DNA of 64,000 nt from Lactobacillus sp. W8174 (GTDB lineage: Bacteria; Bacillota; Bacilli; Lactobacillales; Lactobacillaceae): the NCBI RefSeq assembly GCF_016100975.1, contig NZ_JACFRN010000001.1, forward strand, positions 124,001-188,000, written 5' to 3'. Every line of letters begins with the position of its first letter. Within the stretch, counting starts at the first letter, position 1. A program made the position numbers and the translations under genes. Below the pieces are notes generated by a model, which worked only from the letters and a program-made list of their open reading frames with translations, did no database searches and had not been told where the DNA came from. This document shows positions 14,004 to 32,838 of this stretch, piece by piece.

Positions 14004-14015
14004 TAAACAGATGTC

Positions 14016-14109
14016 CTTTAAAATTAGTCCCGTGAGGCTAGCAAGGAAAGCTCAATTAAGTATTGACTTTTACAAAGCATTTAGTCTCAAATAGATTAAG
14101 TGCTTTTTT
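14016..14109 (+). promoter_or_regulatory. PyrR attenuator upstream of pyrR
   Basis: TTTAAAATTAGTCCCGTGAGG followed by CTAGCAAGG (about 14016-14045) matches the PyrR-binding consensus ARUCC-N-GNGAGGYU with the trailing AAGG. The terminator stem 14074-14087 / 14093-14106 (14 bp with two G-U pairs, loop CAAAT, T run) lies just before the pyrR ribosome binding site. PyrR thus represses its own operon. Confidence 0.9.
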
Positions 14110-14137
14110 CATGGGCAATGTACTACAGGAGAAAAAA

Positions 14138-24353: not shown

Positions 24354-25391
24354 CTAACTGAAATCTAGTTCAAAGTCTTTGCTGGTAAAAAGATGAACTT
24401 TGTTATTAAAGAGGTAATTCATTGCGATACCTAATGCAATAGGTAACACAAAGAAAAGAACAGCAATCAGTAAAATATTAACCAAATTCGCTGGGCGATT
24501 TGCCATGGCGGCAATAGGGCCAATTAATCCCGAAAAGCCAAATCCCGCACTCATCGGTGTACCTTGAATTTGAAATACTGCACCTAGAGCACCCATTATA
24601 CCGGCATTAATTAAAAGCGGGATAAGTAATTTGGGATTAGTCATTAAATTAGCCATTTGCATTTTAGGAGAACCCAAGAAGTGGGCTATTGAGGTACCAA
24701 AACTATTTGCTTTCCAACCGAAAACAGCTAAAGAAAAAGCAACAGCTGTAATACCTAAATTGGCAGAACCGGAAGCTATACCAGAAATGCTTATCGCGGT
24801 GGCGATACCGACTGAAGAAATGGGGGAAACTATAAGCAACCCAAATACTATTCCCATCAACATTCCCATAATAATTGGTTGCAATGCCGTCAATTTTTCA
24901 ACACCGACTCCAATCAAACTGGTTAATTGACCAACAGGGATGCGCGTAAGACAGCCAATTCCTCCGGCAATTAGCAGAACAAGCAGTGGAACTAATAGAA
25001 TTGTGTATGCTTTTAATTTCTTACCAAAAAACAAAACTAGGCCGTAAGCTATCATAATAGTGATGGCCGTGTTAATAACGTCACCACTGCCCATTACTGC
25101 AACTTTACCTTTGTTCATCACAAAGTTACCAGCTCCAGCTGTTGCCGCTAAAGCAATAGATGAGGTTTGGATTGGTGTTAATTTACCAGTCATACCGACA
25201 CAGACAGCACTGATTGCTGGCAACAATGCCGAAGCAAAGGTGGTCAAAGCTAAAATAAAGCTTAATTGAGGCATGCTTGGCAGCAATGCTTTTACCAATT
25301 GATTAATTAGGGCTCCAGGAATTAAAGCAACAACTATACCCGTTGATAAGCCATTTAGTGTATCTAACGTAATTTTTTTCAAAGTATTCAT
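24354..25391 (-). CDS. PF13303-type membrane transporter (annotated family: PTS EIIC-like), candidate aromatic amino acid carrier
   Basis: 345 residues with about ten hydrophobic segments and glycine-rich signatures (GLSTGIVVALIPGALINQL, AATAGAGNFVMNKGK, SPISSVGIATAISISGIA, GFGFSGLIGPIAAM). It looks like the EIIC-like membrane family PF13303, yet no EIIA, EIIB or sugar-metabolic gene lies nearby. The gene sits directly behind a leader peptide packed with Tyr, Phe and Trp codons and an attenuator, which suggests its real job is transport linked to aromatic amino acids. That functional link is an inference from regulation. GGGAGAG provides the ribosome binding site. Confidence 0.75.
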   Translation of the reverse strand: MNTLKKITLDTLNGLSTGIVVALIPGALINQLVKALLPSMPQLSFILALTTFASALLPAISAVCVGMTGKLTPIQTSSIALAATAGAGNFVMNKGKVAVMGSGDVINTAITIMIAYGLVLFFGKKLKAYTILLVPLLVLLIAGGIGCLTRIPVGQLTSLIGVGVEKLTALQPIIMGMLMGIVFGLLIVSPISSVGIATAISISGIASGSANLGITAVAFSLAVFGWKANSFGTSIAHFLGSPKMQMANLMTNPKLLIPLLINAGIMGALGAVFQIQGTPMSAGFGFSGLIGPIAAMANRPANLVNILLIAVLFFVLPIALGIAMNYLFNNKVHLFTSKDFELDFS

Positions 25392-25405
25392 TTTACTCTC
25401 CCAAT

Positions 25406-25519
25406 AAAAAACTCACACAGATGACGACAACTGTGTGAGTTTTTAGAGAAGAAAGTACTTAAGTCTTTAAAACACACAATTGTCATGAAGATTGAACTGT
25501 GTGTCTAAGACAATGACAA
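25406..25519 (-). promoter_or_regulatory. Transcription attenuator with mutually exclusive hairpins (aromatic leader)
   Basis: On the minus strand: element X TTGTCAT (25519-25513); region 1 ACACACAGTT (25504-25495); ATGACAA (25486-25480), complementary to X; region 2 AATTGTGTGT (25481-25472); region 3 CACACAGTT (25437-25429), an exact repeat of region 1; and the terminator 25444-25431 / 25420-25407, a perfect 14-bp stem with six T. Region 2 can pair with region 1 (terminator free to form) or region 3 (antiterminator). X paired with ATGACAA would trap region 1 in a loop and favour read-through. Confidence 0.75.
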
Positions 25520-25528
25520 ACTAGGCAC

Positions 25529-25600
25529 TCAGATCAAATAGCTGAAGTACCAGAAATAATATTTTACTTGCGGTTGATTAATTTTTTGAATTGCCGTCAT
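25529..25600 (-). CDS. 23-residue aromatic-rich leader peptide
   Basis: A short ORF from ATG 25600-25598 to TGA 25531-25529 with a good ribosome binding site (GAGAGG, 8 bases upstream). Residues 14-21 read YYFWYFSY, so seven of eight residues are Tyr, Phe or Trp. This is the hallmark of a regulatory leader whose translation senses charged aromatic tRNAs. A small hairpin (25551-25542 / 25532-25524) spans its Trp-to-stop codons and could act as a pause site. It lies within the 5' leader of the PF13303 transporter gene. Confidence 0.8.
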   Translation of the reverse strand: MTAIQKINQPQVKYYFWYFSYLI

Positions 25601-25631
25601 AATCTTTACCTCTCATAAATATTTAAGAAAT

Positions 25632-25660
25632 ATCATAACTTAACAACATAAAAAAAGCAA
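25632..25660 (-). promoter_or_regulatory. Promoter of the leader peptide-transporter unit
   Basis: On the minus strand TTGCTT (25660-25655), 17 bases, then TATGAT (25637-25632). The transcript would start near 25625, about 25 bases before the leader peptide start. Confidence 0.65.
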
Positions 25661-25886
25661 GACTATTTTTAAAGAAAATTTTTCATTGGTATATCAAGCT
25701 TTAAACACTTAGTAATTATCTCGTTTAAAGAAATAAGGTTAGTTAATTATTAAAAAATTGGATATTCCTTTTGTTAAAACAGCTAGCGCAAAGTTGATAA
25801 TATTTTTGAATAACTTTTTAATAACTACTAGAATAATGTCGAGTAAAATATTGAATAGGTTTTACAACAAATGATTATAGAAAGAA

Positions 25887-28218: not shown

Positions 28219-28292
28219 TGATCCGGGTGAGATTCGAACCCACGACCCACGGTTTAGAAGACCGTTGCTCTATCCAGCTGAGCTACCAGACC
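28219..28292 (-). tRNA. tRNA-Arg (anticodon UCU)
   Basis: On the minus strand: 7-bp acceptor stem GGTCTGG / CCGGATC (with G-U pairs), D arm GCTC-AGCTGGATA-GAGC, anticodon arm ACGGT-CTTCTAA-ACCGT with anticodon TCT, and T arm GTGGG-TTCGAAT-CTCAC, discriminator A. CCA is not encoded. It reads AGA codons. Its 3' end faces the small-gene island, the usual side for integrated elements. Confidence 0.95.
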
Positions 28293-32736: not shown

Positions 32737-32838
32737 TTGTATTTGTGGATTCCTCCACATCTGCAACCGCACATTTCGGGGTAATAAGTCTTTTACGGAG
32801 CACCTCGATTGGCGAGTCTAAGTAAATTTTGGAGGGTA
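32737..32838 (+). promoter_or_regulatory. Ribosomal protein L21 leader RNA
   Basis: The leader upstream of rplU folds into a first hairpin GTTG...TGTGGA-TTCC-TCCACA...CAAC (32737-32766) and further pairing around GGAGCACCTCGATTGGCGAGTC. Position, length and gene context match the known L21 leader class of Firmicutes, where L21 is thought to bind its own mRNA. The consensus was compared only from memory. Confidence 0.65.

Follow-up and report, generated by a model that had tools for sequence, protein, structure and literature searches.

An aromatic-rich leader ORF and a terminator precede the PF13303 gene

On the minus strand of the window, a 64,000-nucleotide stretch of DNA from a honeybee-gut Lactobacillus whose closest named protein records (99% identical) belong to L. 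kimbladii, L. kullabergensis, L. laiwuensis and L. huangpiensis, the gene of a PF13303 membrane protein is preceded by a putative promoter, a short leader ORF and a series of segments able to pair in alternative ways (Table 1). The 23-codon ORF, its ribosome binding site, the run of residues YYFWYFSY, the competing segments and the terminator before the PF13303 gene, all described in an initial annotation of this DNA, can be read directly in the sequence. The promoter fared less well: both hexamers and the 17-nt spacing are present, but its quality is below that claimed, as the -35 hexamer matches the consensus at only three of six positions and a consensus scan did not list it. The -10 region is discernible in most relatives.

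The terminator consists of a 12-bp stem (-18.1 kcal/mol) followed by a T run that ends ∼12 nt 5′ of the PF13303 start codon. Its loop of ∼10 nt exceeds the limit of 8 set in our consensus terminator scan, which therefore did not list it. Folding of positions 25392–25530 gave -48.9 kcal/mol, compared with -27.7 (SD 3.4) in 200 shuffles (z = -6.2), and CACACAGTT is present twice.

The leader has no Rfam family match at gathering score, and at E ≤ 10 there were weak matches to unrelated families. Likewise, no T-box (RF00230) was detected in the window at gathering score, nor at E ≤ 10 over positions 25300–25720; the source genome as a whole has 15 T-box matches, five of them above gathering score. 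Elsewhere in the window, Rfam models matched an L21 leader (32755–32829), a PyrR binding site (14011–14112) and a tRNA (28219–28292). Searches of open-access literature returned no account of this leader.

Table 1. Positions of the leader, its RNA segments and the downstream gene in the window
Feature	Position	Strand	Remarks
Putative promoter TTGCTT-17-TATGAT	25632..25660	minus	Read from sequence; TTGCTT at 25660-25655, TATGAT at 25637-25632
Leader ribosome binding site GAGAGG	25609..25614	minus	Read from sequence
Leader ORF, 23 codons, MTAIQKINQPQVKYYFWYFSYLI-stop	25529..25600	minus	Residues 14-21 YYFWYFSY; aromatic codons 14-19 and 21
Segment A, GGUACUU	25545..25551	minus	In leader codons 17-19; pairs with B
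Segment B, CUGAGUGCCUAG	25521..25532	minus	Across the stop codon and just 3′ of it; A:B, alternatively B:C
Segment C (region 1 of the initial annotation), UUAGACACACAGUU	25495..25508	minus	C:D pairing
Segment D (region 2 and its 5′ extension), AUGACAAUUGUGUGUU	25471..25486	minus	D:E, 14 bp
Segment E (region 3 and terminator loop), AAACUCACACAGUUGUCGUCAU	25421..25442	minus	From alignment
Segment F (region 4), CUGUGUGAGUUU	25409..25420	minus	E:F; then U-rich tail to ~25403
PF13303 membrane protein gene, 345 aa	24354..25391	minus	Predicted PTS-IIC-like fold

The leader is conserved in close orthologues

A PF13303 homologue was found in 40 of 75 genomes of the genus. Conservation of the leader peptide, which had been set as a check on the initial reading, was borne out in every one of the 22 orthologues with at least 75% protein identity (L004–L025); nine of these are 94–100% identical to the window protein, so the 22 are not independent cases. 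Most of them also keep AAATATTTATGAGAGGT at the leader ribosome binding site. The aromatic core reads YY(F/Y/L)(W/R/G)YF (IYFWYF in L015), and the Tyr and Phe codons are kept while other leader residues vary. The Trp position is occupied by W in 14 leaders, R in seven and G in one; Trp is therefore not essential, and on this point the initial reading needs correction.

At eight loci of more distant homologues in the genus (44–50% identity, L026–L033), we accepted no leader immediately before the transporter gene; in L027 and L033, a leader precedes an aminotransferase gene located 5′ of it. When the 75 genomes were searched for a YYFWYF-type DNA pattern, it occurred at 31 places in 23 genomes; 12 of the 30 loci read were this leader and none of the others was accepted as one. 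One of these others, locus L071 of genome G032 (outside the window), has a 27-codon stretch, MLVRKPVKSTYFFWFFAIAEKKFNSYT, with YFFWFF inside a 69-codon frame 167 nt 5′ of a glycosidase-like gene, and no terminator was visible there by eye. Upstream of the aminotransferase genes of the source genome (five matches, four upstream regions), short frames with aromatic runs at L209 and L210 were rejected; they seem to lack a ribosome binding site and to overlap other genes.

The source genome also encodes a 35%-identical PF13303 paralogue outside the window (L001, G000:C6:608299-609327). It is preceded by a Shine–Dalgarno (SD)-led, Ile/Leu-rich ORF of 22 codons, MRRISNQHISILSQIILLTMYT, with no terminator apparent. 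This ORF, possibly a branched-chain leader, is kept with changes in six of 20 loci compared (L001, L212, L213, L215, L216 and L218). L001-like loci in other genera come after PanE-like genes.

Alternative helices are supported by compensatory changes

Helix statistics were derived from the 22-sequence genus alignment and 500 shuffles; related sequences can beat such shuffles without any structure, so the following counts are support rather than proof. For A:B, C:D and E:F together, 96.3% of cells were paired and 11 of 30 pairs showed double-sided change, compared with 2.6 in the shuffles, none of which scored as high. Nine of these changes fall in the terminator and one each in A:B and C:D. 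Taken singly, the A:B hairpin (GGUACUU:GAGUGCC) was paired in 98.7% of cells, with one C-G pair replaced by U-A in two sequences, C:D in 91.5%, and E:F in 99.2%, with compensatory change in nine of 12 pairs.

The opposing set, D:E with B:C, was paired in 92.4% of cells and had double-sided change in seven of 24 pairs (2.9 in the shuffles, 2/500 as high); for further pair types there was no excess, shuffles scoring as high in 79 of 500. The D:E antiterminator was paired in 93.5% of cells with double-sided change in five of 14 pairs, and its use of the terminator loop accounts for the conservation of that loop. B:C was paired in 90.9%, with double-sided change in two of ten pairs, and here the alignment reflects mostly plain conservation. 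Collectively, the alignment backs four of the five helices of a his-type A–F chain, B:C being the weak one. The 1:2, 2:3 and 3:4 helices of the initial annotation are thus all retained with compensatory changes, most of them in 3:4. At the level of sequence comparison, we regard the leader, the aromatic codons within it and four helices (A:B, C:D, D:E and E:F) as demonstrated.

Segment C starts ∼20–24 nt past the leader stop, and a stalled ribosome therefore cannot mask it directly. The initial annotation had invoked a pairing of an element X, TTGTCAT, with ATGACAA. Both are present in the window, but the pairing is not kept in relatives (double-sided change in none of seven pairs; 414 of 500 shuffles reach its score), and we rejected it on covariation. 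The A:B hairpin, lying over codons 17–19 and the stop, is the better candidate; it gives a his-type A–F chain and may, as its counterpart does in the his attenuator, supply the missing link.

Two further features of the region were noted. The leader start, AUGACGGCAA (25600–25591), is complementary over 10 nt to the terminator loop, UUGUCGUCAU (25430–25421), also in many relatives (92.5% of cells paired; 72/500 shuffles equal). The linker between D and E (CUUAAGUACUUUCUUCUC, 25463–25446) holds a palindrome, AAGUACUU, whose sequence would allow pairing with the GGUACUU in the leader; it is kept in much of the genus and altered in L017, L020, L021, L022, L024 and L025.

A model of attenuation by ribosome position

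We consider it very probable that the element is a ribosome-mediated transcription attenuator that senses the charging of Tyr and Phe tRNAs, and in many species of Trp tRNA too. The segments follow each other in the order A (in leader codons 17–19), B (over the stop), C, D, E and F. When aromatic amino acids suffice, a ribosome at the stop codon would mask B, C:D and the E:F terminator would form, and the gene would be off. If the leader were not translated, A:B would form, again leaving C:D and E:F and the gene off. Stalling at the Tyr/Phe codons would instead place the ribosome over A, so that B could hold C, the 14-bp D:E antiterminator could form, and the gene would be read. Starvation would accordingly turn expression on, with B:C presumably serving as the switch step.

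To model the effect of ribosome position, the leader was masked as far as 12 nt from the A-site codon (counted from its first base), and what remained of the transcript was folded as it stands prior to synthesis of segment F. Altogether 47 attenuators were folded (L148 was dropped as no terminator was found), a total that includes L100 and L147, which have no usable D segment for the C:D measure. Many of these attenuators are related, and the figures given here therefore overstate the evidence. With the ribosome on the aromatic cluster, antiterminator pairing was higher by > 0.1 than at the stop in 17 of the 47 attenuators, and higher than in the ribosome-free leader in 26 of them. Among variable profiles, antiterminator pairing was highest at the aromatic cluster in 17/22 (footprint of 10 nt), 17/21 (12 nt) and 18/23 (15 nt), where 5.6, 5.4 and 5.9 were expected. 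For C:D pairing before E is made, 12 of the 47 attenuators gave lower values on the aromatic cluster than with the ribosome at the stop and two gave higher ones, the remainder showing no clear difference or being not computable; the minimum of C:D pairing lay in the aromatic cluster in 10/18, 11/18 and 14/17 for the same footprints (expected ∼4).

In these models a position-dependent shift towards antitermination was seen in several other genera and in some members of the genus, with L082, L084, L101 and L103 as clear cases in one measure or the other. In the clade of the window the profile was flat, E pairing upstream equally at every ribosome position in equilibrium folding. In the window itself, D:E with inner helices (-19.4 kcal/mol) is more stable than C:D (-11.8), which in turn is more stable than B:C (-4.7). 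The flat profile and the advantage of C:D over B:C imply that switching in this clade would be kinetic or draw on a feature beyond these helices.

Aromatic leaders recur in other genera of the Lactobacillaceae

PF13303 homologues were found in 249 of 397 sampled Lactobacillaceae genomes. Besides the 22 close orthologues we compared 93 loci, i.e. the eight of the genus, 26 new ones and 59 usable of 60; fetched loci are a part of all matches. The 93 include a partial gene (L161); L043, L045 and L046 duplicate L083, L087 and L079, each such pair entering the count a single time, and L002 (the same gene again), L003 (a weak match below the cut-off), L157 and L231 were left out.

An aromatic leader was present in 26 of the 93 loci, directly before the transporter gene in 17 and before an operon-heading aminotransferase gene in nine, and these loci span ten genus labels (g1, g5, g6, g9, g14, g19, g21, g23, g27 and g30). 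These loci support the aromatic link that had been proposed for this family, named after sugar PTS IIC proteins. Outside the aromatic core the leaders are unlike one another (RYYFWFF, NFWFWFF, SFYFYF, SYYNFTWF, YYYFYFF, KYYFWFF, VFFWFW, YYWFTR), and a further core was YYFGYF. Over the richest seven codons, F occurs in all 48 leaders, whereas 46 have Y and 35 have W, which suggests that between genera it is mainly the aromatic composition that is conserved. In all but one of the 48 attenuators (47), an intrinsic terminator separates the leader from the gene.

This variation bears on a different mode of action, TnaC-type stalling of the nascent peptide when an aromatic amino acid in free form, or some derivative of it, is plentiful, by which excess would induce an exporter or a catabolic operon. 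Such induction would be sensible for the aminotransferase and D-2-hydroxyacid dehydrogenase partners seen in relatives, which also serve aromatic breakdown. Arrest peptides, however, require fixed residues at fixed places, and here the aromatic residues vary between genera in order, in spacing and in what flanks them (YYFWYF, NFWFWFF, SFYFYFAWY, YYNFTWF, YYYFYFF, YYWFTR), while within the genus W gives way to R or G with the rest of the device unaltered; we regard stalling of this type as unlikely. An erm-like leader that senses a general slowing of translation or a ribosome-targeting drug, its aromatic bias being incidental, appears more improbable still, to the point of being scarcely credible: leaders of this kind are mentioned for Firmicutes (PMC2965389), but the aromatic enrichment is specific and recurrent and the partners seen are metabolic enzymes.

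The enrichment was also evident when L077–L162 (741,704 strand-bases) were scanned for short ORFs that follow an SD sequence and have five or more aromatic residues in seven; the scan returned 21 ORFs with leader motifs found before and seven others; a mononucleotide shuffle gave one match. T-boxes near family members were absent from 60 loci at gathering score, and from seven loci (two of them among the 60) at E ≤ 0.01.

Not every PF13303 gene shows this link, as 67 of the 93 loci had no leader found. The gene before these leaderless loci was D-2-hydroxyacid dehydrogenase-like in 34, PanE-like in seven, a dihydrolipoyl dehydrogenase in two, an aminotransferase in four, and another gene or none near in 20. 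No leader was detected before operons that start with a 2-hydroxyacid dehydrogenase or dihydrolipoyl dehydrogenase (E3) gene (0/43, where L030 and L031 offered only 56 nt upstream). Two aminotransferase loci, L085 and L090, likewise had short upstream sequence (∼250 nt), and L028 had none. Three loci with a leader (L095, L104 and L106) have an apparent 2-hydroxyacid dehydrogenase gene 290–333 nt upstream, 5′ of the leader.

Beyond the Lactobacillaceae, we read 21 of 24 loci (L168, L169 and L191 were left out) and found no leader in them. The PF13303 gene followed a dihydrolipoyl dehydrogenase-like gene in 17, an aminotransferase-like gene in one and no near gene in three. This adjacency in the closest PF13303 genes outside the family (L170–L190) hints at a link to pyruvate or another 2-oxo acid.

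In one genus the aspC motif overlies an aromatic leader

The aspC motif (RF04313, SRC-45-1), with > 1000 representatives, was published among strong riboswitch candidates, with reservations, and its authors describe very few highly conserved nucleotides (PMC11109978). RF04313 matched five of seven genomes of genus g30, two of them above the cut-off, and did not match the window. All five matches overlie an aromatic leader (NYYWFTR or YYYWFTR). Downstream of the matches at L136 (132.6 bits) and L137 (63.3 bits, below the cut-off) lie an aminotransferase gene and then a PF13303 gene; in the other three, a PF13303 gene occurs at equal distance on the same strand. Moreover, the Rfam consensus of the motif translates to NKNCYWFTRIPA-stop. 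The aspC copies examined were these five, the > 1000 representatives entering solely through the consensus, and on this basis we read the motif as an aromatic leader-peptide attenuator.

The converse, that the element of the window is itself a ligand-binding riboswitch as proposed for this related motif, would fit its strong conserved structure with a terminator and the listing of aspC as a strong candidate (PMC11109978). Against this, the conserved 5′ part is coding, as it is in the aspC consensus and in all five matches, no shared sequence element beyond the aromatic codons was seen across genera, and the aspC authors themselves note very few highly conserved nucleotides; a riboswitch is very unlikely. 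A leader attenuator would be a simple explanation for this orphan riboswitch candidate.

Protein family, partner enzymes and likely substrate

The window protein matches PF13303 with 300.1 bits (cut-off 28.9) as the sole domain found, and its AlphaFold2 model, a confident one (pLDDT 87.1, pTM 0.82), has the fold of glucose-superfamily PTS IIC proteins. A sequence search for solved relatives returned a best E of 0.038, which is unconvincing, and searches of open-access literature yielded no tested function for PF13303.

Partner genes in relatives were scanned with one example per type. The PLP aminotransferase had NCBIfam NF005588 as its best match, slightly below the cut-off, and the D-lactate/2-hydroxyacid dehydrogenase-like protein was also below; the PanE family member and the dihydrolipoyl dehydrogenase were both above. 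Such enzymes act on 2-oxo or 2-hydroxy acids, E3 being part of 2-oxo acid complexes. The operon partners together with the aromatic control suggest that PF13303 here transports an aromatic amino, 2-oxo or 2-hydroxy acid, in a direction that we infer as follows. No prephenate dehydratase was found in the source genome, and the organism is therefore, judging from its gene content, probably auxotrophic for Phe; for the same reason, control by starvation fits import for salvage better than export, and the substrate is probably imported. A prephenate dehydratase was found in 40 of 397 genomes of the family, so a test of the link to auxotrophy has low power.

A wider scheme, which we offer as a tentative possibility, is that PF13303 proteins are PTS-fold, phosphorylation-independent importers of 2-oxo and 2-hydroxy acids, of which one branch in the Lactobacillaceae took aromatic ones (phenylpyruvate, phenyllactate and hydroxyphenyl kin) for Phe/Tyr salvage in auxotrophs via the aminotransferase. 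That branch would have acquired multi-aromatic attenuators, or kept them as nearly all else in the leader changed, and the widespread aspC candidate would be such an attenuator and not a riboswitch. Aromatic 2-hydroxy acids of lactobacilli are relevant to food preservation and host signalling.

Relation to known systems

Judged by its conservation in sequence, the element is a real and conserved attenuator that places a known mechanism in a new family and setting. A membrane family named after sugar PTS components is tied by it to aromatic amino acid status, which makes the substrate class testable. The fold is that of the glucose-superfamily IIC proteins (PtsG, MalT, ChbC). Unlike these sugar IICs, which carry a GITE-type Glu, PF13303 shows no invariant Glu in an alignment of 30 sequences, and it is a single domain with amino-acid and 2-oxo-acid enzymes as partners in relatives.

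T-boxes perform amino acid sensing in most Firmicutes. In the present case, one transporter gene of a bacterium that has many T-boxes appears to be governed by a leader peptide, and this arrangement returns in ten genera with differing leader sequences. A related case is the aspC motif, which in one Lactobacillaceae genus covers the same kind of attenuator before an aminotransferase–PF13303 operon; it differs in having been published as a riboswitch candidate (PMC11109978), and in that the window itself has no match to its model. As of 2010, leaders with codon runs were called unknown outside Proteobacteria and Actinobacteria until the Bacillus histidine leader was described (PMC2965389). The hisS*/hisZ leader of Bacillus, as presented there, resembles ours in that a codon-run leader replaces a T-box in Firmicutes, and differs in amino acid, gene and genus.

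With the trp, pheA and pheST leaders of Proteobacteria the element shares aromatic control codons and the logic of terminator and antiterminator; the window has no Rfam match to them, and here region 1 lies ∼20–24 nt past the stop, beyond direct masking by the ribosome. In the his operon attenuator of enteric bacteria, segments A to F pair as A:B, C:D and E:F or, alternatively, as B:C and D:E. The present leader has the same predicted hairpin alternatives and likewise a run of putative control codons, but these are mixed Tyr, Phe and Trp codons before a transporter gene in a T-box-rich Firmicute, and B:C is weak in the clade of the window.
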